Source: an uncultured Bacteroidota bacterium (GTDB lineage Bacteria; Bacteroidota; Bacteroidia; B-17B0; Aurantibacillaceae). From it: 64,000 nt of DNA. The stretch spans positions 62,001-126,000 of the forward strand of contig CAITNS010000040.1 of NCBI GenBank assembly GCA_903893815.1, given 5' to 3'. Shown one piece after another: positions 1 through 14,534 of this stretch (its first letter is position 1; the number at the start of each line of letters is the position of its first letter). Under the pieces are notes generated by a model that was not told the DNA's origin, did no database searches, and saw only the letters and a list, made by a program, of their open reading frames with translations. A program made the position numbers and the translations under genes.

Positions 1-2
1 AT

Positions 3-3000
3 GACCAAGAAGATGCTGGTTCTGGTGGTGGTGGCGGTGGCGGTGGCGGTTCAACTGCTGGTTTAAACGGCTCAAACGGTTCAGGAAATTTTAATTCAGC
101 AAACAACTGCTCTACAGTGGGTGGAGCTTTTGGAACTGCTGGTTCAACTGGTGGTAATGGAGGAACAGGAGCTTCTGATCCTGATGCATGTGGCTGTTGT
201 AATAATGGCGGCGGCGGTAATGCCGGTGCAATTTCAATAAATTCACAAAGCGGCGGCGGCGGCGGCGGCGGCGGTAGCGGAGGTTCAGAAAGTAGAGTTG
301 GTGGAGCTGGCGGTGCTGGCGGAGGCGTATTTAGTCATTTAGGAGCAAATAATACAGGTGGAACTGGTGGCTCTGGGGGAGATCCAGGAGGAAGTGGTTC
401 GGTAGGAAGCGCTGGAACAAATGGAGCAATTGGCTCAACTGGCACTGTTGGATCTGCTGGTTCGGATGCAACTGGTTTTTGGGCAGTTGGAGGACAAGGC
501 AGCACTGGAGCTAATGGATTTGGTGGACAAGGCGGCAGAGCTGGCGGCGGCGGCGGCGGTCAAGGTTGTACTTTCTGTATAGACGGGGCTGGATCTGGCG
601 GCGGCGGCGGCGGCGGAGGTGGTCAAGGTGGATATGGTGGAAACGGAGGTTTTAGCGGCGGATCTACCTTTGGTATATTTATATTTAGTAATGGAGTAAA
701 TGGTAATATAGTAGATTGTCAAATAATCAACGGTTCGTTTGGAGCTGGAGGAACTGGCGGAAGCGGTTCAGTTGGTGGAAGTGGTGGAAATGGCGGTTTA
801 GGAAGCCCTTATAATTTAGGAGAAGTTGGGGCAGGTGGAAATGGAGGGAGAGGTGGAAATGGAGGACAAGGCGGAACTGGAGGAGCTGGAAGTGCTGGTA
901 TTGCAAATCCAGTAAGAGTTGTGGGAGGTTCCGGATTAACTTCTAATATTTCAACTTTTACTTTATCTACTCAACCAGTTATTGTTGTTGAAAATAAAGC
1001 TTGTTCAAATGTAAATATTGCACATACAACTAGTTTAGGTTCACCGGTATGGTCTTCTTTTGGCATAAGTGCTGCGCCCGCATCTGGTTCTGGGTCGCCA
1101 GTAAATACTAGTTATTCAACATTAGGTCGTAAAACTGTAGTAATGAATACAAGTAATTACACGGATTTTAATAATATTATTGTTAGCGCACCTTCCACAG
1201 GTTCTATTGTAGCCTCTGCTACATCTATTTGTCCTGGTTTTGTAAATTTTGCTAGTACTGCTGTCGGTACTGCTGGATTAAATTATACTTGGTCAGTACT
1301 TCCAGCAGGAGCAACAATTTCTTCTGCCTCAACAAGTACGACGTCTGTTTTATTTCCAAACGCAGTATCTACATCTATTACCTACACAATCACATTATCT
1401 ATTACAACAAATTGTTGTGGAGCATTAGCACCAGTTACCACTACGGTTGTTGTAAACCCTATACCAGTTGCACCTTCTGCTATCGTTAATTCAATTTGTA
1501 TTGGCGGCATTGCAACATATTCAGCTACTGCACCTGCAGGAAGCTCTTTTAATTGGTATAATGCAGCTAGCTCTGGAACCTTATTAGCGTCTGGTAACAC
1601 TTATTCTGTAGCTAATGTTTTAACTCCAATTACTGTTTACTTGCAAGCGACAAATTCTTCAGGATGTTCAAGCACTCTTACTCCTGTAGTTGTAACGCCA
1701 ACGGCCGTTCCTCCTCCAACAGGTATACCTGGCTCTGCATGTGATATTGGAATGGTTCAAGTAGGAATTAACCCAGTGACTGGAATTACAAACTATAATT
1801 GGTATTCGGATGCTGGCGGAACAACATTAGTTCAATCTGGTAACAGTTTAAATTATAGTCAAAACATTGCAACTGCTGGTGGCACTTACATTGTTTATGT
1901 GCAATCTAATATTGCTGGATGTGCGCCAAGCGGTTTAGTGCCAATAACGGCTAGTGTTTCGACAACACCTATTACGCTTGCTCAAACTATTTTACCAAAT
2001 GATACGGTTTGTATTAATACACCCGTTTCAATTTCGTTAAATCCAAGTGGAGGAAATGGATCATATACCTATACATGGTCTCCAATCACTTCAAACCTAA
2101 GCAGCATTTCTCAAACGGTAAGCTTATCAACATCTTATAATGTTTTTGTGAGTAGTAACGGTTGCTCAAAATTATTTTATCTTCCAATTATTGTAAACCC
2201 ATTACCAAAAGATACTATTGGAACTCCTTTAGCAATTTCTTGTACCAATAGTTTAGTAACATTAGATGGTTCATTCTCTGCATCAGGCGCTGGAATTAGC
2301 TATAGTTGGACAACTTCTGGAGGAATAATAGTTTCTTCGGCAATAAACAATACGGTTTCTGTAAGCACAGCTGGAACATACTCCTTATTAGTAACTGATG
2401 GCGTTACAGGTTGTTCGTCAACACAATCAGTTTCTGTTACTGGTAGTTCAAGTTTACCTACATTAACTATAAGCGCTTCGTCTAACACCTTAACATGTGC
2501 AACACCAACTATACAATTAACAGCTTCAAGTTCTACAGGTGGCGTAACTTATTCATGGACAACCATTGGTGGTGCATTAACAAGTGCAACTATCGCTAAC
2601 CCAATTGCTACTTCCAGTGGAACTTATATTGTTGTGGTAACAAATACAGCTACAAGTTGCCAATCAACACAAACCATTAATATTGTTCCTGATACTTCGA
2701 TTCCAACGGTTTCCGTGTCTGCTAATAGTTTAACTATTACATGTACAAATACAACGGTTACAACTGCTTTAACATCCACAAATACTATTTCGAGTTATAG
2801 TTGGAGCCCAATCCCATCAGTTGGTGGTGCCAATCCTGTATTTAACACATCAGGGTTATATAACGCTACTATCACTGCAAGTAATGGATGTTCTATAACT
2901 ACAGCGGTTAATGTAACCACAGATAATTTAGCGCCAAATGTATCTTTAACCTCTGCTGTTAATAGTGGAACCATAACTTGCTTTAGCCCATCAGTAAACA

Positions 3001-5792
3001 TATCTCCAACAATAACACCCAATAGTAGTAATTTAACTTATACTTGGTCTCCTAGTAATGTATCTTCAAGCACTTTATCTGCCGCAACTTTTACAGTAGC
3101 AGGCATCTATACGTTAGCTATTACGAACACGTTAACAGGTTGTGTGACTTCATTAACGAACACAGCAAATACATTTACAGTGATTGCTAATAATGCTCCT
3201 CCTACTTTTACGTTAGGTACATTGCCATCATTAACTACAACATGTTCATCGCCTACTGTTGCACTATCAGCATCAAGTAATGCTGGAGTTAACGGAGTTT
3301 ACACTTGGCTTACTCCTGTGCCATCAACACTAACAGGCAACCCAATCAATGCCTCAGCTGCTGGAATCTATACAGTTTATATTACTGATACCAATAGTGG
3401 ATGTAGCAGTGCTTCTGCTGGACAAAATACAGTTGAGATAGTAGCCGATGCTGGTATACCTACGGTATTATTAACAGCTAATTCATTATCAATTACTTGT
3501 TCAAACACACAACCTACTCTAACGCTTACTACTTCAGCACCAACAAACTCTGTAACCTATGCTTGGACTCCAACTGTTGGTATTATACCAGGAACAGAAA
3601 CAACGGCATCGCCTTCGTTTAGTGCCATAGGAAATTACAGCGTTGTTGTTACAAACACTGGTACAGGTTGTGCTTCAAGTATTTCGTTAAACACAGTAAC
3701 TGTTTCATTGAATAACACCATTCCTACTACAACATTATCATTAGCGGCAAATGATGGGACATTAACGTGTTTAACAACTTCTATTTCATTAACACCAGTG
3801 ATTAGCCCTTTAAGTCCCGATTTAACATACACTTGGTCTCCTAGCGCTGGAATCTTTGGATCGGCAAATCAAGCTAATGTAACCTTTACTGCCTCAGGAA
3901 TATATACTTTAGCTATAACAAATACCTTAACGGGTTGTGCTTCTGTGCTTACTAATACTGCTAATATATTTTCAGTGCAACAAACCATTAATACTCCTAC
4001 TATTACTCTAACAAGTACTGGTGGAAATACAGGTACATTAACGTGTTTAACAATATCAATAGTTGTAACACCAACGGTGATTCCTGCTAACTCTACCTAT
4101 ACATGGACATCTAGTACGGGTACATTTACAAATACCATTGATGCTATATTTACTGCACCTGATAGTTATACTTTAACTGTAACAGATGCTGTTACTGGTT
4201 GTACAACTTCTGCTACTAATCCTGCTAATGTATTTACGGTGTATCAAACGATTGTTACACCTACCATCACTTTAACAAATGCGGGTGTTAATACAGATAC
4301 ATTAACGTGTTTAACGACATCAATTGTAGTTACACCAACTGTTATACCTGCTGGGTCTACTTATACATGGACATCGGGATTAAGTGGTGTGATAGCAAAT
4401 TCATCTTCTATTTCAATAACATCTCCTGATAGTTACACTTTAACTGTGACTGAAGCTGTTTCGGGTTGTACAACTTCTGCTACGAACCCTGCTAATGTAT
4501 TTACGGTATATCAAAATACGGTAGTTCCAACTGCGACATTATCTTCAGTAGGCGCTAACTCTGGAATTATTACTTGTACAAATACATCTGTATCAATAAC
4601 GCCAGTTGTACTTTCAACTGCTAATTTAACCTATACTTGGTCGCCTAGTGGTGTTATTTCTTCTTCTATTAATGATGCAACTTTTACTTCACAAGGTGTT
4701 TATACCTTAGCTATTACAAATACATTAACAGGTTGTGTAAATTCATTAACTAATACAGCTAATATCTATACTGTAACTGATATTAGAACTCCGATAACGG
4801 CATCTATTAGTCCAACATCTACCAATGTAATAATTGGCTGTGGCGCTAGTAATTCTTCTGTTACTTTACAAGGAGGGTCTAATGCAATTACTCCATCATA
4901 TACATGGATGCCGGGTGGCATTAATACTCAAACAGTTGCGGCAATTGCTTCAGGTGACTATACATTAAGTGTTGTAGATGCAACTAATGGATGTACATCT
5001 TTTACTACAATTACTGTAATTGGAAGCACAACAACACCTCAAGGCGTTGATGCTGGAGCATCTGCTAACATTGCTTGTGGCAGTGCAACGGTAAATTTAA
5101 ATGGTGTAACTACTACGCCAAACACTAGTTTTTCTTGGAGTGGGCCTTCTGCTACTAGTATTATATCTGGAAGTAATACTGCAAATCCTATCGTAACAGA
5201 AGTTGGTGATTATACGTTAACAGTAACTGATAACTTAACTGGTTGTTCAAGCTCTGCCATTGTAAATGTTACACAGGCCATAGCAACAGCCACTATCACA
5301 GCAAATCCAACTTCTGGTATATCCCCACTTGTTGTTGCTTTCACTGGTTCTAGTGCAGGAAACCCCAGCTATAACTGGAATTTCGGTGATGGAAGCACAT
5401 CAACTAACCAAAATCCAAATAATGTGTTTAATGCTGGAACGTATACCGTGGTATTAACAACGACATCTGGAACTTGTGTTGCAACAGCAACAGTTGAAAT
5501 TTTAGTAGAAGATGGCTTTACGCTAGAAATACCAAACGTATTTACACCAAATGATGATAAATCAAATGATATATTTAAGATAAAATCAACAGGCGTTAAG
5601 GAAATATCATTGCAAATATTTAACCGTTGGGGACAAAAACTATATGAATTTTCTGGACCAAAAGCTTCATGGGATGGAATAACTCCTAATGGTGTAAAGG
5701 TTCCAGAAGGGACATATTTTTATTTCGTAAAAGCTACAGGTTTTGATGGTCAAGAAATAGAAAAACATGGTACAGTAAATTTATTTAGATAA
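3..5792 (+). CDS. Giant T9SS type-B adhesin-like protein, glycine-rich plus Ig-like repeats (5' partial)
   Basis: The reading frame is open to the left edge, so the true start and signal peptide lie outside the window; 1929 residues are visible. Residues to about 300 form a glycine-rich track of GG, GGA and GGN runs resembling mycobacterial PE_PGRS tracks. Then follow many Ser/Thr-rich Ig-like/PKD-like units of about 80-95 residues, each with a TYTWS-type strand and a YTLxITN-type strand. A PKD domain (NWNFGDGS) lies near residue 1780. The C-terminus is a gliding-motility-type (type B) sorting domain with QIFNRWGQKLYEF and ending GTVNLFR. The family is exported by T9SS and attached to, or released from, the cell surface. 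The usual FTPNGDG motif reads FTPNDDK. An adhesin role is inferred. The closest relative here is the protein at 9888. Confidence 0.85.
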   Translation, partial: DQEDAGSGGGGGGGGGSTAGLNGSNGSGNFNSANNCSTVGGAFGTAGSTGGNGGTGASDPDACGCCNNGGGGNAGAISINSQSGGGGGGGGSGGSESRVGGAGGAGGGVFSHLGANNTGGTGGSGGDPGGSGSVGSAGTNGAIGSTGTVGSAGSDATGFWAVGGQGSTGANGFGGQGGRAGGGGGGQGCTFCIDGAGSGGGGGGGGGQGGYGGNGGFSGGSTFGIFIFSNGVNGNIVDCQIINGSFGAGGTGGSGSVGGSGGNGGLGSPYNLGEVGAGGNGGRGGNGGQGGTGGAGSAGIANPVRVVGGSGLTSNISTFTLSTQPVIVVENKACSNVNIAHTTSLGSPVWSSFGISAAPASGSGSPVNTSYSTLGRKTVVMNTSNYTDFNNIIVSAPSTGSIVASATSICPGFVNFASTAVGTAGLNYTWSVLPAGATISSASTSTTSVLFPNAVSTSITYTITLSITTNCCGALAPVTTTVVVNPIPVAPSAIVNSICIGGIATYSATAPAGSSFNWYNAASSGTLLASGNTYSVANVLTPITVYLQATNSSGCSSTLTPVVVTPTAVPPPTGIPGSACDIGMVQVGINPVTGITNYNWYSDAGGTTLVQSGNSLNYSQNIATAGGTYIVYVQSNIAGCAPSGLVPITASVSTTPITLAQTILPNDTVCINTPVSISLNPSGGNGSYTYTWSPITSNLSSISQTVSLSTSYNVFVSSNGCSKLFYLPIIVNPLPKDTIGTPLAISCTNSLVTLDGSFSASGAGISYSWTTSGGIIVSSAINNTVSVSTAGTYSLLVTDGVTGCSSTQSVSVTGSSSLPTLTISASSNTLTCATPTIQLTASSSTGGVTYSWTTIGGALTSATIANPIATSSGTYIVVVTNTATSCQSTQTINIVPDTSIPTVSVSANSLTITCTNTTVTTALTSTNTISSYSWSPIPSVGGANPVFNTSGLYNATITASNGCSITTAVNVTTDNLAPNVSLTSAVNSGTITCFSPSVNISPTITPNSSNLTYTWSPSNVSSSTLSAATFTVAGIYTLAITNTLTGCVTSLTNTANTFTVIANNAPPTFTLGTLPSLTTTCSSPTVALSASSNAGVNGVYTWLTPVPSTLTGNPINASAAGIYTVYITDTNSGCSSASAGQNTVEIVADAGIPTVLLTANSLSITCSNTQPTLTLTTSAPTNSVTYAWTPTVGIIPGTETTASPSFSAIGNYSVVVTNTGTGCASSISLNTVTVSLNNTIPTTTLSLAANDGTLTCLTTSISLTPVISPLSPDLTYTWSPSAGIFGSANQANVTFTASGIYTLAITNTLTGCASVLTNTANIFSVQQTINTPTITLTSTGGNTGTLTCLTISIVVTPTVIPANSTYTWTSSTGTFTNTIDAIFTAPDSYTLTVTDAVTGCTTSATNPANVFTVYQTIVTPTITLTNAGVNTDTLTCLTTSIVVTPTVIPAGSTYTWTSGLSGVIANSSSISITSPDSYTLTVTEAVSGCTTSATNPANVFTVYQNTVVPTATLSSVGANSGIITCTNTSVSITPVVLSTANLTYTWSPSGVISSSINDATFTSQGVYTLAITNTLTGCVNSLTNTANIYTVTDIRTPITASISPTSTNVIIGCGASNSSVTLQGGSNAITPSYTWMPGGINTQTVAAIASGDYTLSVVDATNGCTSFTTITVIGSTTTPQGVDAGASANIACGSATVNLNGVTTTPNTSFSWSGPSATSIISGSNTANPIVTEVGDYTLTVTDNLTGCSSSAIVNVTQAIATATITANPTSGISPLVVAFTGSSAGNPSYNWNFGDGSTSTNQNPNNVFNAGTYTVVLTTTSGTCVATATVEILVEDGFTLEIPNVFTPNDDKSNDIFKIKSTGVKEISLQIFNRWGQKLYEFSGPKASWDGITPNGVKVPEGTYFYFVKATGFDGQEIEKHGTVNLFR
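251..275 (+). repeat. GGC trinucleotide run coding poly-glycine
   Basis: An almost pure GGC run inside the first adhesin gene, with similar shorter runs near 543-556 and 595-613. All are in phase with the reading frame, so changes in copy number would lengthen or shorten a glycine tract without breaking the frame. They are strikingly GC-rich against an AT-rich gene. Confidence 0.8.
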
Positions 5793-5810
5793 ACCATTTT
5801 CAAACTCATA

Positions 5811-5846
5811 AAAAAAGCCGCCCGCTATTTAGCATAGGGCTTTTTT
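5811..5846 (+). terminator. Rho-independent terminator after the first adhesin gene
   Basis: AAAAAAGCC at 5811-5819 pairs with GGCTTTTTT at 5838-5846, with further inner pairing (GCTA/AGC and CCC/GGG). The T run follows directly. It lies 18 nt after the stop codon and just before the insertion sequence, so it should insulate the two. It is symmetric enough to work in both directions. Confidence 0.8.
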
Positions 5847-5857
5847 ATTTTAGGACG

Positions 5858-5881
5858 TGCCTCGTCCTGAAATGAGTTGAC
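5858..5881 (+). repeat. Left terminal inverted repeat of the IS3 element
   Basis: It begins TGCCTCGTCCTGAAAT and continues with GAGTTGAC. It matches the reverse complement of 7149-7172 at 19 of 24 positions, with the core CGTCCTnAAATnAGTTGAC shared. The preceding flank TTTTAGGACG makes an outer palindrome with this repeat. Confidence 0.85.
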
Positions 5882-5897
5882 ACAAAAGTTGACTTAT

Positions 5898-6287
5898 ATG
5901 AAAAACAAAGGAATTAAAGAGTTTATTAAAAAGACTCAAAAAGATTACAGTCTAGCATTTAAGCTGCAGGTTGTTGATGAGATTGAAAAAGGTCATTTGA
6001 CTTATAAACAATCACAAAAGAAATATGGTATTCAGGGCAGAAGCACTGTTTTGGTTTGGTTACGAAAACATGGTAACTTAGATTGGAAAAGTAAGTTACC
6101 TATGAAGAATAAAAAGCCACCAAAAAGCCAAATTTCAGAATTGGAAAAAAAGATTAAGCGTTTAGAAGCAGAGAAAGAAATTCTCAATCGTGCTATTGAT
6201 ATAGCGGATGAGACCTTAGGTACAGAAATCAGAAAAAAGTATTTGCTCCTGTCATTAAAAGCTTCCAAAAGTCAGGAGCATCAATAA
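5898..6287 (+). CDS. IS3 transposase OrfA (helix-turn-helix protein)
   Basis: A protein of about 129 residues that binds the IS ends and controls transposition. The N-terminal half is a helix-turn-helix domain of the IS3 OrfA type (YSLAFKLQVVDEIEKG, then STVLVWLRKHGNLDW). The C-terminal half is a leucine-zipper-like coiled coil (ISELEKKIKRLEAEKEIL). The ATG at 5898 is preferred over an upstream TTG at 5877, because that TTG lies within the terminal inverted repeat. The frame overlaps the orfB frame, and the A-AAA-AAG heptamer at 6233-6239 should let ribosomes slip by -1 to make the fused OrfAB transposase. Confidence 0.9.
   Translation: MKNKGIKEFIKKTQKDYSLAFKLQVVDEIEKGHLTYKQSQKKYGIQGRSTVLVWLRKHGNLDWKSKLPMKNKKPPKSQISELEKKIKRLEAEKEILNRAIDIADETLGTEIRKKYLLLSLKASKSQEHQ
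6233..6239 (+). promoter_or_regulatory. Slippery heptamer A-AAA-AAG for -1 frameshifting
   Basis: In the orfA frame the codons read AGA AAA AAG, giving the standard A-AAA-AAG slippery heptamer. After slipping back one base the frame reads VFAPVIKSF and then GASIKRSTKL, which is the expected IS3 junction leading into OrfB. Fifteen codons remain in orfA after the site. Confidence 0.85.
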
Positions 6288-7141
6288 AAAGATCTACAAA
6301 ACTAATAGCTGTTACTTTAGGTTATAGCCGTCAATATTATTATAAACAACAAAAAGATATTGCTAAGCAGGAAGCCAAAAAGCGAGAAGTGAAAAGACTT
6401 GTAGATGTTCAAAGGAAGTTATTACCAAGACTTGGCACCAGAAAATTATATTATTTAATTAAAAGTGAATTGGCTGCCAGTCAAATAAAGTTTGGCAGAG
6501 ATAAATTATTTGAATTATTAAAAGAGTATAAGCTTTTAATCTATCCACAACGTCGCTATATCCAAACAACAATGAGTAAACATTGGATGAGAAAATGGCC
6601 AAATATTATTAAAGATAAGAGCATTGTAGAGTCTGATCAAGTATGGGTAAGCGATATCACTTACATTAAAACAGAACAAGGTCATTGCTATCTAAATATG
6701 ATTACAGACGCTTACAGTCGAAAAATTGTAGGATATGCGTTAGATAATACAATGCAAACAGAAAGTATGATTAAAGCTTTAGAAATGGCTACTAAGCAAA
6801 AAGTTAATAACGAAATTCAAACAATACACCATTCAGATAGGGGGCTTCAATATTGCAGTAAAGAATATGTTGAATTGACGGCTAAAAACAATATTATACT
6901 AAGTATGACAGAGAACTCAGACCCGTATGAAAATGCTTTAGCTGAGCGAATGAACAGAACTATAAAAGAAGAATTTGGTATGAACAAAAAACTAAAAAAC
7001 AAAGACCAAGTAGCACAACTATTAAAAGAAAGTATAAATTTGTACAATCGATACAGACCTCATTTAGCTCTAATGATGAGAACACCTGAGGAAATGTATC
7101 AAAAAAAATCCCGACTACCAGAGGCAATCGAGATTAATTAA
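6239..7141 (+). CDS. IS3 transposase OrfB (DDE integrase domain), made by -1 frameshift
   Basis: The catalytic part of the transposase. The frame opens at the heptamer and continues without a stop to 7141; an internal GTG at 6389 is the first start-like codon used by simple ORF callers. The N-terminus has the HTH_21-like segment (LGYSRQYYYKQ, then RLGTRKLYYLI). The integrase core follows with the DDE triad: D in VWVSDITYI, D in IHHSDRGLQY and E in YENALAERMNRTIKEE. The C-terminus YNRYRPHLAL is typical of IS3. No truncation or stop is seen, so the element is probably active or only recently silent. Confidence 0.92.
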   Translation, partial: VFAPVIKSFQKSGASIKRSTKLIAVTLGYSRQYYYKQQKDIAKQEAKKREVKRLVDVQRKLLPRLGTRKLYYLIKSELAASQIKFGRDKLFELLKEYKLLIYPQRRYIQTTMSKHWMRKWPNIIKDKSIVESDQVWVSDITYIKTEQGHCYLNMITDAYSRKIVGYALDNTMQTESMIKALEMATKQKVNNEIQTIHHSDRGLQYCSKEYVELTAKNNIILSMTENSDPYENALAERMNRTIKEEFGMNKKLKNKDQVAQLLKESINLYNRYRPHLALMMRTPEEMYQKKSRLPEAIEIN

Positions 7142-7148
7142 AAAATCC

Positions 7149-7172
7149 GTCAACTTATTTTAGGACGTTACA
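7149..7172 (-). repeat. Right terminal inverted repeat of the IS3 element
   Basis: Read on the minus strand it starts TGTAACGTCCTAAAAT and continues AAGTTGAC. It lies 8 bp after the orfB stop codon. The octamer ACGTTACA at its outer end is repeated directly outside it (7173-7180). Confidence 0.85.
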
Positions 7173-7302
7173 ACGTTACAGGCGCAGAAATAAGATGTGA
7201 TAAAATGATGTAGAATTTAAACAAAATTGAATTATCTATAAAGTTATAAATATAGCCCTTATTATTTATACATTTGTTTATACCAAAAGCTATAATTTGT
7301 CT

Positions 7303-9273
7303 ATGGATTTGAATAACAAAATACAAAGAGATAAAATTTTACTATTAATTCTTGTCTTAACTTTTTTGTTATATGGAAACACTATAAAAAACAAGTATGC
7401 ACTTGACGACAATTATGTAACAATAACAAATCCAGATAGACCAAACAACCCAAAAATAGAAAAGGGTATTCGTGGCATACCAAAAATATTTTCAAGTCAT
7501 TATATAGATTCAAAACAGCAAAGCTTCGAATACAGACCTATCGTTCTAGCAACTTTTGCGATCGAATATCAATTTTTTGGCTGTAATCCTCATATAAATC
7601 ACTTTATAAACCTACTTCTATATGCTTTAACAAATTGCATTTTATTTATGTTGTTAATACGTGTATTAAAAGGTTATAATTATTTATTTCCCATATTAAT
7701 AGTATTGTTATTTATAATTCATCCAATTCATACAGAAGTAGTAGCTAATATAAAGTCAAGAGATGAGTTGCTTAGCTTTCTTTTTGGCATGTGTTCGTTA
7801 TTATTTGCACAAAAGTATATCGAATCAAAAAATATAAAATTCATAATTATTTCTATGTTTTTTATTTTTATTGGCTTATTATGCAAAAAAACAGCAATAT
7901 TATTTATTCCAATAATTCCTTTAACCTACTATTTTTTCAATCCTATAAAAACAAAACAACTGATTTTATTTTCTTTATCCACAACTATAACCTTCGCCTC
8001 CTTTTCTATTCTTAAAAAAATATTGTTAACTGCCGAATCTGGAGCAAGAGTTTTTGCGTTTTTTGAAAACCCCTTGTTTTATGAAACTAATATTTTAAAT
8101 AAAATTTCTTTAGCCTTGTATTCAATAGGTTACTATATAAAATTATTAGTCATTCCCCATCCATTATGCTGCTATTATGGGTATAATACAATTCCGCTTG
8201 CTAAGTTTACATCTCCATTTGTCATCATTTCATTCCTTTTCCATATCTCTATTTTTATTTATGCTCTAATAAAAATAAAAGAAAAAAATATTTTAGCTTT
8301 TGGAATTCTATTTTATTTAATTGGTATTTTCCCTTTTACTAATTTGCTATCGGTGCCAACAGGCATTATAGCTGAAAGATATATTTACTTTGCTACATTT
8401 GGCTACTGTTTATGTATTGCATTCTTTTTATTAAAATTTTTTAAGATTGATTTAAAAGAACAGTCTAAAAAAATCCCCCCTACATTTTATTTAGTTTTAT
8501 TTATAATTTTTATTTTTCATTCATCTATAACTATTTCTAGAAACGCAAAATGGAAAGATGAAATGACATTATTTAAAAATGATTGTAAAAACTTTGAGAA
8601 CTCTTGTAATCTTCAATATATAACTGGTAATAAACTATATTTAGAAATGATAAATACACCATCTGGAGCTAAAAAGGACGCATTAATAACTGAAATGACT
8701 AGTCATTTCAAACGCGCTCTAAAATTAATGGAAGATGGCGTAAAAGAATATCCTAAAGATTATACCACTTTAAACAATATTGGAACTATCTATGTAAATA
8801 TTTTTAACGATGCTAAATCTGCTCAGCCTTATTTTAAAAAATCTCTTTTATTAAAGCCAACAGACGAAGTAACGCAATATAATTATGCTTTTTGTTTTGA
8901 GAAAAAAAACTTAGAAGACTCCGCTATAATATTTTATGAGAAGATGATTACCAATCAAACAAATTATCTACCAGTTTATTCACAGTTAAGAGCATTATAT
9001 TTAAAAAAAATGGATTTTGACAAAACAATTGAATGCGACAAAAAAGCTGTTAATATTAGCCAACAAGATGCTAGACTATATATAAACTTAGGAAACAGCT
9101 ATATATCAAATAAAGATACTTTAAATGGAATTATTCAATTTGAAAAGGCTTTAGAATTGGAACCAAACAATTTTCAATTAAAAAAACAAATAATTGAATT
9201 TTTAGACTCAGCAGGATTTGCAGAAAGGTCGAAAAACATAAAAAACGCTTCACTCACTAAAGAGGCTCCTTAG
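7303..9273 (+). CDS. TMTC-like membrane GT-C protein with C-terminal TPR repeats, putative O-glycosyltransferase
   Basis: A 656-residue multipass inner-membrane protein. The ATG at 7303 is preferred over an upstream TTG at 7297. The first membrane helix (about 12-28) is followed by an acidic loop motif ALDDNYVT (Asp35, Asp36), as in GT-C glycosyltransferases using lipid-linked sugars. HPIHTEVVANIKSRDELL at about 140-157 and GLLCKKTA at about 192-199 closely match conserved motifs of the TMTC family. A DUF1736-like stretch (NPLFYET to IPL) follows. Residues about 480-640 form TPR repeats. Known animal TMTC proteins O-mannosylate cadherin domains. The gene lies between two Ser/Thr-rich Ig-like adhesins, which suggests but does not prove that these are substrates. 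It could also be a general TPR/GT-C protein of Bacteroidota. Confidence 0.75.
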   Translation: MDLNNKIQRDKILLLILVLTFLLYGNTIKNKYALDDNYVTITNPDRPNNPKIEKGIRGIPKIFSSHYIDSKQQSFEYRPIVLATFAIEYQFFGCNPHINHFINLLLYALTNCILFMLLIRVLKGYNYLFPILIVLLFIIHPIHTEVVANIKSRDELLSFLFGMCSLLFAQKYIESKNIKFIIISMFFIFIGLLCKKTAILFIPIIPLTYYFFNPIKTKQLILFSLSTTITFASFSILKKILLTAESGARVFAFFENPLFYETNILNKISLALYSIGYYIKLLVIPHPLCCYYGYNTIPLAKFTSPFVIISFLFHISIFIYALIKIKEKNILAFGILFYLIGIFPFTNLLSVPTGIIAERYIYFATFGYCLCIAFFLLKFFKIDLKEQSKKIPPTFYLVLFIIFIFHSSITISRNAKWKDEMTLFKNDCKNFENSCNLQYITGNKLYLEMINTPSGAKKDALITEMTSHFKRALKLMEDGVKEYPKDYTTLNNIGTIYVNIFNDAKSAQPYFKKSLLLKPTDEVTQYNYAFCFEKKNLEDSAIIFYEKMITNQTNYLPVYSQLRALYLKKMDFDKTIECDKKAVNISQQDARLYINLGNSYISNKDTLNGIIQFEKALELEPNNFQLKKQIIEFLDSAGFAERSKNIKNASLTKEAP

Positions 9274-9393
9274 CCGAGTAAAACAAAATTTTAATTCATT
9301 AAAATCAATATATTACAAATATTTGTTAAAAATGGTATAAATTTTGTAGTATTGTTATAAATAATTCACGTAAATTTATTAAAAAAAAATCCC

Positions 9394-9843
9394 ATGAAAT
9401 CATATTTATTTTCACTAACTATTACATTGCTATTTTTTTCGGTTTTTTTAAATGCTCAAAATATAGTGTATAAAGAAGCTACTGTATCAAGACCAGCAGA
9501 GTTTTGGAAACCTATAACTTTATTAAATGGGACAAATACTCAAAATGGAGTAAGCTTTTATATGACTAAAGCGGAATGTAATTCAACTAATATTAAATTA
9601 CTAAAACTAATCAACGAAAACCCTTATGCTGTAATATTTAGTTATCAATTAACTGCTTCTGATCCAATTGTAAACGTTATGGTGCCAGCCTCTGTTTCTA
9701 TTGAAGGTTCATGTAACCCTTCTGATGAAAATGCGTCAAAATTAATTCTCCTTTCAAAAGAAAACAAAATCAAAACAGAAGAAAAAACAAAAGAAAATAA
9801 AGAGTTTTTATTATCGCATATTTCTGTCTCTAGATTTCAATAG
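9394..9843 (+). CDS. Small secreted protein of unknown function
   Basis: A protein of 149 residues with a clear signal peptide (MKSYLFSLTITLLFF, then FLNAQ), predicting export to the periplasm or beyond. The mature part has a short beta-rich region (FSYQLTASDPIVNVMVP), two cysteines (in KAECNS and EGSCNP) that could form a disulfide, and a lysine/glutamate-rich tail. No T9SS sorting domain is seen. It starts 44 bp before the second adhesin and is in the same direction, so the two may be one transcript. I do not recognise the family. An accessory or chaperone role for the adhesin is only a guess from position. Confidence 0.7.
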   Translation: MKSYLFSLTITLLFFSVFLNAQNIVYKEATVSRPAEFWKPITLLNGTNTQNGVSFYMTKAECNSTNIKLLKLINENPYAVIFSYQLTASDPIVNVMVPASVSIEGSCNPSDENASKLILLSKENKIKTEEKTKENKEFLLSHISVSRFQ

Positions 9844-9887
9844 TAGTATTAATAAAACAAAAATCTTTAAAATTTAAAACAACCAAC

Positions 9888-12800
9888 ATGAGGAAAAATT
9901 TATTTTTAATTTTAACTGTATTTTCATTAATTATTAATTTCGGTATTGATAATAAACTTCAAGCACAAACAGCGACAACAACTATTAACTATACTGGATT
10001 TTTAGGTTGCGGTGGCTGTGTTGTATGTGGGGGAGATTATTATTGTTTTAATACTTTAAGCAGCTATTGTGGTAACACAGCAGCATGTAATACTTCAACT
10101 TTTGTTAATCCTGTACCAGCCGGAAATATTGTTACAGGTGTAAATATTGGATATTTTAGTGCAGGATGTAATGGCGGATCCCTTTCTGCCAATATTAATG
10201 GGCAAGCTGTTCCTGCCGTAAACGAAGGTAGTTCAGGTTGTTTATGCTCTTCTGCTCCTTGTGTCCAAAGCGCATCATCGTCGAGTGTATTTCCTTGTGG
10301 TTTACCTGCATATAATAATGCTGCAGGAGGCATTAACTCACTTCAATTATGCACAGGAGCTGATGTTTGTATCAATCGGCTAGTTATTACACTAACCTAT
10401 GCCCCCGCAAATCAAGCATCACCTGCCAATCAGCCAACAAGCGTCTTAGGAGCAACGAATGTTTGTCCTGTCGCTGCCCAAACATTTTCTTGTCCCGCCG
10501 TTGCTAATGCGTCCTCATATAATTGGACTTTCCCAGCTGGCTGGACGATCAATTCAGGAGCAGGAACAAACGTGATTACTGCCACGCCAGGTTCTGCAGG
10601 TAACGTCTGTGTGATGGCTCAAAATTTATGCGGAAATAGTGCATACACATGTTTGTCAGTAGGATTATTAACAGCATCAACCCCGCCTACCAGCGCTAAC
10701 GCTAGTCCAAATCCTGTTTGTGCAAGTGCATCAACAACTACACTTAGTTTATCAGGCGGTTCTTTAGGATCAGCAGCATCCTGGAATTGGTATTCTGGAA
10801 GTTGCGGCGGCACATTAGTAGGTAGTGGGAGCTCCATTACCGTTGCTCCATCTTCAACAACCACATATTATGTAAGTGCGTCTGGAACATGTAATACAAC
10901 AGCATGCGCTTCATTAGTATTTACTGTAAATCCAGCTCCAACAGCTAATGCAGGAGCTACTCAAGCATTAAATTGTACTATAACAAATACAGTATTATCT
11001 GGCTCTGGAGGTGGAACATACTCTTGGTCAGGGCCTGGGGTTGTATCAGGAGGAACAACTGCAAATCCAACGGTAAATCTACCAGGCACTTACAGTTTAA
11101 TTGTAACAAGTGCGGGCTGTCCGTCTGCCGTATCAACTGTATTAGTTACACAAGACATAACGCCTCCTACTGCTACTGCATCAAATACCGCAACTTTAAC
11201 TTGTGCTACTACTACGGCAGCTTTAACGGCTACTGGTGGTGGAACTTATAACTGGTCGGGAATAGGAATCGTTTCTGGTGGAACAACAGCTAATCCAATT
11301 GTTAATGGAACTGGACCTTATGTTGTGACAGTTACTGCTGCTAACGGTTGCACTGCTACCGCTAATACTTCTGTTGCTCAAAATCTTACACCTCCAACTC
11401 CTTCAGCATCTAATACGGCAACATTAACTTGTGCTACAACTACTGCTGCTTTAACAGCTTCTGGAGGTGGAACTTATAGCTGGTCAGGAACCGGCATCGT
11501 TTCTGGTGGAACTACTGCTAATCCTATTGTTAACGGAACGGGGCCTTATCTTGTAACAGTAACTGCTGCTAACGGTTGTACAGCTACCGCAAATACTTCT
11601 GTTGCTCAAAATATTACGCCTCCTACTCCTTCAGCATCTAACACGGCAACATTAACTTGTGCTACAACTACAGCTGCTTTAACAGCTACTGGTGGTGGAA
11701 CTTATAATTGGTCGGGAACAGGAATCGTTTCTGGTGGAACTACGGATAACCCTATTGTTAATGGAACTGGGCCTTATGTTGTAACAGTTACGGCAGCTAA
11801 TGGTTGCACTGCTGCAGCTAATACTTCAGTTGCTCAAAATATTGCGCCTCCCGCTCCTACTGCTTCTAATTCAGGATCTTTAACTTGTACAACTACTTCT
11901 GTTACTTTGACTGGAACAAACGGTGGAACATACAACTGGAGTGGCCCAGGCATTTTAAGCGGGGCTAGTACTGCAAATCCTGTTGTTAATCTAATCGGTT
12001 CTTATGTAGTAACAGTAACAGCTGCAAACGGTTGTACAGCTACCGCAAATACCACTGTTTCTCAAAATACAACCGTGCCAACTGCAAATGCAGGTACAAC
12101 TCAAACATTAGTTTGTGGTGTTTCATCAGTTACATTAACTGGTTCTGGAAGCGCTGGTTCTAATGCCACTTGGCTAGGAGGCGTTTGTGGTTCCGCATCA
12201 AGTTTCACAACAACAGCATGTGCTCCAGGCACATATACATTAATAGCTACTGATGCTGTATCTACTTGTACAAATTCATCAACTGTATCTGTGAGTTCTT
12301 CTACTAATGTACCTCAAGCAACTGTAAATGCAATTACAAACTCTATAACATGTACAAATAGTGTTGTAGCAATTGGAGTAACATATAGCGGTACAGATCC
12401 TGTAACTTATATATGGTCTGGTCCTGGAATAACAGGAAGTACTACAAGTTCTGTAACAACAGCTAACTTGTCGGGAACATACAATGTTACTATTACAAAT
12501 ACATCTTCTAACTGCCAATCAGTTTATTCAGCTGTTGTTCCAACAAATACAACACCTGTAAGTGCAAATATTGCTCCATCAACATTATTAACTTGTATTA
12601 CAAATACAGTTAATTTATCCGTAACAACTGTTCCAACAGGCACTAACTATGCATATAGCTGGTCAGGTCCTGGAACAATAACAAATGGTACTACGGATAG
12701 CCCAACAGTTAATGCCGATGGTAGTTATGTAGTAACAATAACAGATAATATAAATGGTTGTGTAGGAAACTTTACAACGACAGTAGGATCAAATACAATT

Positions 12801-14534
12801 GCACCTACATTAAGTTTAACTGCTAATTCATTAACAACAACTTGTAGCACTCCAACCGTTACATTAAACGCGTCAAGTAATGCTGATCCTAATTCAACAT
12901 ACAGTTGGAGTGTTTCGGCAGGTGGCACATTAAATAATATAAATACAAGTAACCCTATTGCAGGTAGTGGTGGAGTTTATGATGTAGCTGTAACTAATAC
13001 GGTCAATGGTTGTGTATCTGCTCCTCAATCTGTAACAGTTAGTGCTGATGCTAATATTCCAACGTTTACATTAACATCTACTAGCGTATCGTTAACTTGT
13101 CTTTCATCTTCTGAAACAGTAACGTTAACTTCTACTTCTCCTGATTTAACTTACTCGTGGTCTCCAGCACCAATTGCAGGAGGAAACTCTGCTACACCTA
13201 CATTTAATACCCTTGGCACATATGTATGTGTTATTACAAATACTGTAAATAACTGTAGTACAGGAGCGGCACAAGTAACTGTTACTAGTAACACTAACGC
13301 TCCTACAATGGTTATTCCAGCGGGAGTATTAAATTGTACTTTTACAACTACTACTTTAGGTGGTGTTTCTACTCCAACAATAGGTTTGTCATATTCTTGG
13401 AGTGGTCCTGGCATCATTGGTTCTACTACAAGCTCATCAGTTAACGTGAACGTAGCAGGAAACTATGATGTTACTCTTTTAGATGCAGCAAATGGTTGTA
13501 CAAACACTATTAGCACTAGTGTAACTACAAATACAACGCCTCCAACGTTAAATGTTACAGCTACGAGTACTTTATTAAGCTGTGCAATTTCTTCAAGTAC
13601 ACTATCTGCTAGTACAAATGTAAGTTCAACACCTACATGGTCTACTCCTTCTGGTCCAGCCAGTAACCCTGTTATTGCTGGAATTGCAGGCAACTATATA
13701 GCAACAGTGACAGATGCAACTAATGGTTGTACCACGTCTTATACATTACTTGTTAGTGGAAGTACAGTTGCACCAACTGCTGATGCTGGAATTAGTACTG
13801 CTATTCCTTGTGGAACACCAACTGTTGCGTTAAATGGAACAACAACTTCTACAAATGTTGTAACCTATAATTGGTCGGGACCAAATTCCGGAAGTATTGT
13901 TTCAGGAAATTCATCTTCAAATCCAATTGTAATGGATCCAGGAGTATATACATTAACAGTAACAAATACTATAAGCGGATGTTCTGCAACTGCTACTATT
14001 AATGTTACTCAAGCAAATGTGAATGCAGCATTTACTGCAAATCTAAATAATGGTTTAACTCCTTTAGATGTTAATTTTACAGATGCAAGTACCGGAGTAA
14101 TAAACAACTATAATTGGGATTTTGGAGATGGCAGTAGTACTTCTCCAGCAACAAACCCTAACCATACATTTACAACAGGAACATATACAGTTACATTAAC
14201 TGTATCATCTGGACCATGTGTATCAATTGCAACTACTATTATTGTTGTAGAAGATGGATTAACTATAGAAATTCCAAACGTATTTACTCCTAACGGAGAT
14301 GGATCAAATGATATTTTACACATTAAATCATCAGGAGTTCAAGAAATATCTTTACAAATATTTAACCGCTGGGGACAAAAATTATATGAATTTGCTGGAC
14401 CAAAAGCATCTTGGGATGGATTAGCTCCCAGTGGTTCAGAAGTGCCAGAAGGAACTTATTTTTACTTTGTTAAAGCCAATGGTTTTGATGGACAGGAAAT
14501 AGAGAAACATGGTACGGTAAATTTATTTAGATAA
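9888..14534 (+). CDS. Giant T9SS type-B adhesin-like protein with tandem Ig-like repeats
   Basis: A 1548-residue secreted protein. Residues 1-27 are a signal peptide ending LQAQ. A cysteine-rich head (GCGGCVVCGGDYYC) follows. Then come Ig-like, SprB-type repeats rich in Ser, Thr and Gly with TYNWSGPG-type strands. Residues about 431-725 hold nearly identical 76-residue tandem units. A PKD domain (NWDFGDGS) lies near residue 1405, and a type-B (gliding-motility) sorting domain occupies about 1455-1548 with the canonical FTPNGDGSND and the end GTVNLFR. The C-terminal 90 residues are almost identical to the protein at 3-5792, so the two are paralogues exported by the same system. A role in adhesion or gliding is inferred from the family. 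No PorP/SprF gene follows it. Confidence 0.88.
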   Translation: MRKNLFLILTVFSLIINFGIDNKLQAQTATTTINYTGFLGCGGCVVCGGDYYCFNTLSSYCGNTAACNTSTFVNPVPAGNIVTGVNIGYFSAGCNGGSLSANINGQAVPAVNEGSSGCLCSSAPCVQSASSSSVFPCGLPAYNNAAGGINSLQLCTGADVCINRLVITLTYAPANQASPANQPTSVLGATNVCPVAAQTFSCPAVANASSYNWTFPAGWTINSGAGTNVITATPGSAGNVCVMAQNLCGNSAYTCLSVGLLTASTPPTSANASPNPVCASASTTTLSLSGGSLGSAASWNWYSGSCGGTLVGSGSSITVAPSSTTTYYVSASGTCNTTACASLVFTVNPAPTANAGATQALNCTITNTVLSGSGGGTYSWSGPGVVSGGTTANPTVNLPGTYSLIVTSAGCPSAVSTVLVTQDITPPTATASNTATLTCATTTAALTATGGGTYNWSGIGIVSGGTTANPIVNGTGPYVVTVTAANGCTATANTSVAQNLTPPTPSASNTATLTCATTTAALTASGGGTYSWSGTGIVSGGTTANPIVNGTGPYLVTVTAANGCTATANTSVAQNITPPTPSASNTATLTCATTTAALTATGGGTYNWSGTGIVSGGTTDNPIVNGTGPYVVTVTAANGCTAAANTSVAQNIAPPAPTASNSGSLTCTTTSVTLTGTNGGTYNWSGPGILSGASTANPVVNLIGSYVVTVTAANGCTATANTTVSQNTTVPTANAGTTQTLVCGVSSVTLTGSGSAGSNATWLGGVCGSASSFTTTACAPGTYTLIATDAVSTCTNSSTVSVSSSTNVPQATVNAITNSITCTNSVVAIGVTYSGTDPVTYIWSGPGITGSTTSSVTTANLSGTYNVTITNTSSNCQSVYSAVVPTNTTPVSANIAPSTLLTCITNTVNLSVTTVPTGTNYAYSWSGPGTITNGTTDSPTVNADGSYVVTITDNINGCVGNFTTTVGSNTIAPTLSLTANSLTTTCSTPTVTLNASSNADPNSTYSWSVSAGGTLNNINTSNPIAGSGGVYDVAVTNTVNGCVSAPQSVTVSADANIPTFTLTSTSVSLTCLSSSETVTLTSTSPDLTYSWSPAPIAGGNSATPTFNTLGTYVCVITNTVNNCSTGAAQVTVTSNTNAPTMVIPAGVLNCTFTTTTLGGVSTPTIGLSYSWSGPGIIGSTTSSSVNVNVAGNYDVTLLDAANGCTNTISTSVTTNTTPPTLNVTATSTLLSCAISSSTLSASTNVSSTPTWSTPSGPASNPVIAGIAGNYIATVTDATNGCTTSYTLLVSGSTVAPTADAGISTAIPCGTPTVALNGTTTSTNVVTYNWSGPNSGSIVSGNSSSNPIVMDPGVYTLTVTNTISGCSATATINVTQANVNAAFTANLNNGLTPLDVNFTDASTGVINNYNWDFGDGSSTSPATNPNHTFTTGTYTVTLTVSSGPCVSIATTIIVVEDGLTIEIPNVFTPNGDGSNDILHIKSSGVQEISLQIFNRWGQKLYEFAGPKASWDGLAPSGSEVPEGTYFYFVKANGFDGQEIEKHGTVNLFR
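11178..12061 (+). repeat. Tandem 228-bp coding repeats, about four copies
   Basis: Units begin at 11178, 11406, 11634 and 11862. Each codes for 76 residues starting ASNTATLTC (the fourth starts ASNSGSLTC). The first three are nearly identical in protein, but their DNA differs at many synonymous sites. The array could expand or contract by recombination without changing the frame. Confidence 0.88.

Follow-up and report, generated by a model that had tools for sequence, protein, structure and literature searches.

Known systems for comparison

The animal proteins TMTC1-4 are O-mannosyltransferases that act on cadherins and form CAZy family GT105 (PMC7801869). A paper of 2021 noted that full-length homologues exist in prokaryotes (PMC7801869); in the literature we found no assignment of their function. 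Surface adhesins are also modified in Streptococcus mutans, where the GT2 protein PgfS and the PMT-family protein PgfM1 (PMT-2 family) are needed for the modification of Cnm and WapA (PMC5856776). A third point of comparison is the wfpC-wfpG gene set of Flavobacterium psychrophilum, whose predicted product is the 3,5-dihydroxyhexanoyl group carried by the 4-amino sugar Qui4N (PMC6519341). Bacteroidota additionally O-glycosylate proteins at D(S/T)X motifs (PMC8729774, PMC12871550), by an OTase that was described as undiscovered in 2025 (PMC12871550).

Here we describe a locus at the start of a 64,000-nucleotide stretch (the window) of an uncultured Bacteroidota bacterium. A preliminary description had proposed it as an adhesin-modification island in which a TMTC-like enzyme decorates two giant Ig-like adhesins, and this designation is well supported by the comparative genomics below. 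We give about an even chance to the reading that the island encodes a system dedicated to the O-glycosylation of giant T9SS type-B adhesins. As in the D(S/T)X system, O-glycosylation would take place in the periplasm of a member of the same phylum, the island case being predicted from genes.

Organisation of the island

The relevant region (Table 1) ends at position 14534, directly ahead of the ribosomal str operon (rpsG, fusA). Adhesin 1 measures 2619 aa in full; its start, at G000:C40:59933, lies 2068 bp ahead of the window. Directly upstream of it, outside the window, lies a second TMTC-like copy (35% identical to the 7303-9273 product), so that the unit of TMTC-like gene and adhesin is present twice; the genome holds seven TMTC-like genes altogether. 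The island thus reads small secreted protein, TMTC-like, adhesin 1, IS3, TMTC-like, small secreted protein, adhesin 2. Gaps of 120 bp between the TMTC-like gene and the 149-aa gene, and of 44 bp between the latter and adhesin 2, suggest that these three genes form one operon. The family of the 149-aa protein comprises 12 distinct sequences found, 10 of them encoded directly downstream of a TMTC-like gene.

Table 1. Positions of the island's features in the window
Feature	Position	Strand	Basis or detail
Adhesin 1, C-terminal part	1..5792	+	TIGR04131/CHU_C match and domain reading
IS3-family insertion sequence	5863..7167	+	orfA 5877-6287, orfB 6389-7141
TMTC-like GT-C glycosyltransferase, 656 aa	7303..9273	+	Pfam, motifs, model
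149-aa secreted protein	9394..9843	+	no Pfam match
Adhesin 2, 1548 aa	9888..14534	+	TIGR04131/CHU_C match and Ig/PKD domains

The IS3 element, of about 1.3 kb, sits between adhesin 1 and the TMTC-like gene. Its transposase match (206 bits) exceeds the cut-off, and imperfect terminal inverted repeats were read by eye (CGTCCTgAAATgAGTTGAC / GTCAACTTATTTTAGGACG). It has inserted between the two units and is an outsider to the adhesin/enzyme system. The insertion may have cut the second unit, from the TMTC-like gene onward, off from an upstream promoter.

Linkage of enzyme and adhesin genes in relatives

The preliminary description had asked for co-localisation in other genomes, and this was found. 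The fetched loci contain 128 non-redundant TMTC-like genes, 89 of which could be scored, having more than 6 kb downstream. A gene was counted as linked when a CHU_C/T9SS or Ser/Thr-rich giant protein was encoded at most two co-directional genes downstream, and the controls came from 20 stretches of 20 kb each, picked arbitrarily in the same genomes and holding 185 genes. Linkage was seen for 28/89 TMTC-like genes (31%) versus 7/185 controls (4%), with a Fisher p of 7e-10; as the genes lack phylogenetic independence, this value is descriptive. In the enzyme tree the window copy is represented by its closest fetched relative (59% identical); the clade containing this relative (SH-aLRT 99) shows an adjoining adhesin in 7/7 scoreable loci. 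On this and the overall linkage, we reject the view that the TMTC-like gene came to lie between two adhesins by chance.

Enzymes and adhesins alternate in tandem in the window's genome (G000) and in three relatives, with four enzymes and four adhesins in G006, three and three in G024, and two and two in G008. This amounts to about one enzyme per adhesin in the tandem units, which supports the earlier argument for a dedicated enzyme and suggests that each giant adhesin has its own sugar-decorating enzyme. At one locus of G008 (L091), a 95-aa TMTC-like fragment lies just upstream of the intact TMTC-like gene at 10307 and is probably a decayed duplicate.

The same arrangement could also arise if a genuine GT-C enzyme acted on another acceptor, such as the secreted proteins of 128-149 aa or other periplasmic proteins, or if the adhesin linkage were functionless inherited synteny. 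The small secreted proteins are linked at least as tightly as the adhesins, and the counts are inflated by synteny among related genomes. Against this, linkage extends across several genera and to enzyme pairs of only 31-60% identity, and although the adhesin-linked label is clustered on the tree, several independent changes are required, at least nine of them forced by strong branches. We consider this explanation quite unlikely.

The linked adhesins

Both flanking proteins match TIGR04131 (55.4 and 52.6 bits, cut-off 35) and carry Ig_7/PKD domains, which marks them as predicted T9SS type-B cargo. The enzyme gene does lie between two secreted adhesins, as first described, with the amendments that the IS3 element and the 149-aa gene intervene and that adhesin 1 starts outside the window. 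Within the window, adhesin 1 comprises a Gly-rich segment, about 17 Ser/Thr-rich Ig/PKD-like domains and a CHU_C/T9SS type-B C-terminal domain; adhesin 2 comprises about 14 Ig/PKD-like domains and the same type of C-terminal domain, with Ser and Thr making up 32% of its residues outside that domain. Counted by a core-Trp pattern and including the C-terminal domain, this suggests about 18 and about 15 beta-sandwich domains, fewer than the dozens initially ascribed to each protein. An unusual stretch of more than 40% glycine occupies residues ~700-1000 of adhesin 1 (window positions 1 to ~900), ahead of the Ig-like array.

Adhesins linked to TMTC-like genes are set apart from other type-B proteins in two respects. 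Their median Ser+Thr fraction is 0.322, versus 0.247 for other type-B proteins in the loci and 0.262 for those of the window's genome (p=4.5e-7). Their C-terminal domains also form a subfamily of their own, in which 24/25 nearest neighbours are likewise linked. The median pairwise score is 95.5 bits between loci, against about 60 when other type-B domains are compared with them. Shared locus ancestry contributes to this clustering, and the C-terminal domains of the two window adhesins had served as seeds for the search model.

The adhesins are poor in the Bacteroidota glycosylation motif, as had been noticed early on. D(S/T)(AILVMT) sites number 3 in full adhesin 1 and 0 in adhesin 2, where composition predicts 7.7 and 4.0. 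This scarcity is not specific to the island, because several other Ser/Thr-rich type-B proteins of the same genome are similarly depleted, and T9SS cargo reportedly avoids the motif, which is lacking in the gingipains that make up the main such cargo in P. gingivalis (PMC8729774). For these reasons we dropped it as an argument for a dedicated enzyme. The poverty in motifs nevertheless distinguishes the island from the D(S/T)X system, as does the occurrence of the TMTC-like subfamily in only part of the class.

A TMTC-like enzyme with an altered predicted metal site

The enzyme's reading frame opens with ATG at 7303, with TTG at 7297 as an alternative. Its product contains 11 TM helices (residues 6-416) followed by a periplasmic TPR domain (420-651), with DD35/36 in the first periplasmic loop, Y77R78P79, H143/E145, R153 and E358R359. 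The AlphaFold2 model (pLDDT 91, pTM 0.87) shows a TPR solenoid after the 11 helices, together with the DD loop and a long EL4. Since the 11 helices begin with the N-terminus inside, the TPR domain is predicted to face the outer, periplasmic side. Across a 48-member alignment, the catalytic DD, D35 included, and the donor-phosphate Arg are invariant.

Foldseek on the whole model gave overwhelmingly TPR matches, and the GT-C part was thus folded separately. Searched alone, it retrieved PglB with Foldseek (E=3e-5), and with VIA-align STT3, AglB, Pmt4 and ArnT at Z 16-19 (rmsd 4-6 over ~320-355 residues). Most of the proteins that VIA-align ranks highest are protein glycosyltransferases (OST/STT3, AglB, Pmt4), with ALG12 and ArnT close, and AftA/AftB/AftD (arabinan) are among the structural matches as well. 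A TMTC structure was not seen among the fold matches listed, an absence that excludes nothing. The modelled fold and the catalytic Asp in the first periplasmic loop place the protein in the GT-C superfamily. At the sequence level, a PDB search with the GT-C profile gave no match, and phmmer with the whole enzyme recovered TPR proteins only. Several TPR families exceed their Pfam cut-offs, whereas the result for PF08409 (TMTC_DUF1736), the check originally proposed, depends on the search: 23.1 bits (E=7e-5) in hmmscan, under the cut-off of 27, and 28.5 bits, over it, in a six-frame genome search.

The GT-C and TPR features and the TMTC homology first read from the sequence are borne out, and the motifs HPIHTEVVA, SRDELL and GLLCKKTA are present. 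We made the comparison with TMTC through the seven motifs of PMC7801869, leaving human TMTC sequences out of the trees and alignments. Like TMTC1-4, the island enzyme combines an 11-TM GT-C part with a following TPR part, with a borderline DUF1736 loop match, and its gene adjoins those of beta-sandwich adhesion proteins, which here are T9SS cargo and not cadherins. Motifs M1 (DD in EL1: D35 D36) and M7 (ERxxY: E358 R359 Y362) are kept. M2 (SHKSYRP) reads SFEYRP, so that YRP is retained while SHKS, with its HK, is not; M3 and M6 are kept in part, the M3 Asp being shifted. In contrast to TMTC1-4, M4 KE and M5 DW, the predicted metal ligands, are missing in the enzyme, which has KK and YY instead. 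Among 129 aligned proteins, the Glu of KE and the Asp of DW occur jointly in 0/106 members of the main clade, the window's included, versus 20/23 canonical-type members, at residue positions that depend on the alignment. In the main clade the Asp position holds Tyr, rarely Phe or Ile, and the Lys mostly precedes a non-Glu residue. By this alignment, the window's subfamily has lost both metal-site motifs proposed for TMTC, and catalysis by the TMTC scheme is consequently not a given. Arrays of six and four TMTC-like genes of the canonical-type (KE...D) clade occur at two further loci (L166, 2079-20291; L167, 1-7720), with no adhesin alongside.

A linked gene block suggests a donor sugar

A conserved block encoding KASIII, ACP, KASIII, ketoreductase, GT2 and GNAT proteins stands divergent from or beside the enzyme/adhesin unit; in the window's genome it lies upstream of the window (L009:2558-7133). 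The GT2 protein matches ArnC (E=2e-35) and PgfS (E=1e-32) near full length, both far under the curated cut-offs; against the PgfS-type model NF047588 it scores 113 bits and does not reach the cut-off of 500. The GNAT protein matches PseH with 55 bits (cut-off 93). The small protein between the KAS genes was identified as an acyl carrier protein by a PDB profile search, with a PP-binding (phosphopantetheine) match in 6/10 members (best E 1e-4) and a W-x-S-M signature (35 intergenic matches). The predicted product of the block is probably an N-hydroxyacyl amino sugar linked to polyprenyl phosphate, and not mannose.

KAS and GT2 genes lie within 11 kb of 37/104 TMTC-like genes versus 0/185 control genes. 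Among 197 genomes of the class, 45 carry the ACP and 83 carry TMTC-like genes (threshold E<=1e-70), the latter being present in 33/45 ACP genomes versus 50/152 others (p=2e-6). The ACP is present in all 13 genomes whose TMTC-like proteins reach 440 bits or more, a line drawn post hoc (p=1e-9). In a class-wide draw, no TMTC-like gene was found within 10 kb of 16/20 ACP loci, and the block's sugar may therefore serve other acceptors.

Two side observations concern the surroundings of the block. Three Asp/Arg hydroxylase genes (PF05118, LpxO/OlsC-like; L009:365-2589), of a kind often near the donor block, could possibly hydroxylate the acyl chain or a lipid. Judged by gene lengths and order, in several distant genomes (L068, L212, L214, L218, L219) the block also seems to adjoin the ribosomal str operon, as does the island in the window's genome.

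The block recalls both bacterial systems introduced above. With Pgf it shares a GT2 gene that neighbours genes for a PMT-like membrane protein and for a surface adhesin, and the near full-length match to the PgfS model. However, the score of its GT2 protein is far under the PgfS cut-off, and Pgf comprises no KAS/ACP kit, serves Gram-positive cell-wall adhesins and has not been described in enzyme/adhesin arrays. With wfpC-wfpG it shares two ketoacyl-ACP synthases, an ACP, a ketoreductase and an N-acyltransferase in a single locus, but the wfp acyltransferase is PglD-type where that of the island is GNAT/PseH-like, and the wfp product goes to LPS.

The linked donor kit, a further difference from TMTC1-4, bears directly on whether the enzyme could be a true bacterial O-mannosyltransferase that transfers mannose from polyprenyl phosphate to Ser/Thr of Ig domains, as animal TMTC do on cadherins. 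Homology across the GT-C and TPR parts, the borderline DUF1736 match and the retention of M1, M7 and part of M2 agree with such an activity. The joint loss of the KE and DW acids and donor genes that fit an N-acylated amino sugar speak against it, and the canonical-type paralogues of the window's genome (C12, C16) have no adjoining adhesin. Of the readings weighed here this one has the least support, and we regard it as very unlikely. The idea of a bacterial counterpart of cadherin O-mannosylation is supported only in part: the island enzyme is homologous and perhaps analogous, but differs in its predicted donor sugar and in its active site.

The main rival is that the TMTC-like enzyme adds the same acylated sugar to lipid A, O-antigen, capsule or another such lipid or polysaccharide, and that the adhesins lie nearby only because the locus is a hotspot of surface variation. 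Structural matches to ArnT (lipid A) and to the arabinan enzymes would fit, as would the KAS-ACP-KAS set of an O-antigen locus (PMC6519341), the acylated amino sugars of this kind known from O-antigen, the hydroxylases resembling lipid-modifying LpxO/OlsC, and the many donor blocks without a nearby TMTC-like gene. It accounts less readily for a periplasmic TPR domain, for roughly one enzyme per adhesin, for a small intervening protein almost confined to the enzyme/adhesin arrangement, and for linked adhesins that are Ser/Thr-enriched and have their own C-terminal subfamily; the best VIA-align matches, moreover, are mostly protein glycosyltransferases. On balance it seems unlikely.

A proposed pathway and its significance

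If the island does encode a system dedicated to protein O-glycosylation, its genes suggest the following order of events. The two KASIII enzymes, with the dedicated ACP and the ketoreductase, would build a short hydroxyacyl chain, which the PseH-like GNAT would attach to the amino group of a nucleotide 4-amino sugar. The ArnC/PgfS-like GT2 protein would transfer this sugar to polyprenyl phosphate and, after flipping, the periplasmic TMTC-like GT-C enzyme would modify Ser/Thr of the adjacent adhesin. The periplasmic TPR domain may hold the adhesin meanwhile, with modification preceding T9SS export. The analysis shows gene content and linkage, homology, a predicted fold, the conserved DD and Arg, the pairing of enzymes with adhesins and the Ser/Thr enrichment; from these we infer the sugar, the acceptor residues, the role of the TPR domain, the timing and the order of steps. 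The more specific proposal, that a distinct subfamily of TMTC relatives, altered at the metal site and each paired with its own giant T9SS adhesin, O-glycosylates Ig-domain Ser/Thr with a polyprenyl-phosphate-linked N-hydroxyacyl amino sugar, is tentative and has somewhat less than an even chance of being right.

As far as we searched the literature, three things are new: the tandem unit of enzyme, adhesin and small protein, the association of this unit with the KAS-ACP sugar kit, and the loss of both metal-site motifs together. If the proposal is true, this would be a bacterial form of beta-sandwich O-glycosylation with one enzyme per substrate and a sugar other than that of the animal system. 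With enzyme and substrate genes so tightly paired, the selection of beta-sandwich domains by TMTC-like enzymes could be tested in a bacterium with simple genetics, and TMTC-like enzymes would be a candidate enzyme class for protein O-glycosylation in Bacteroidota (PMC12871550).
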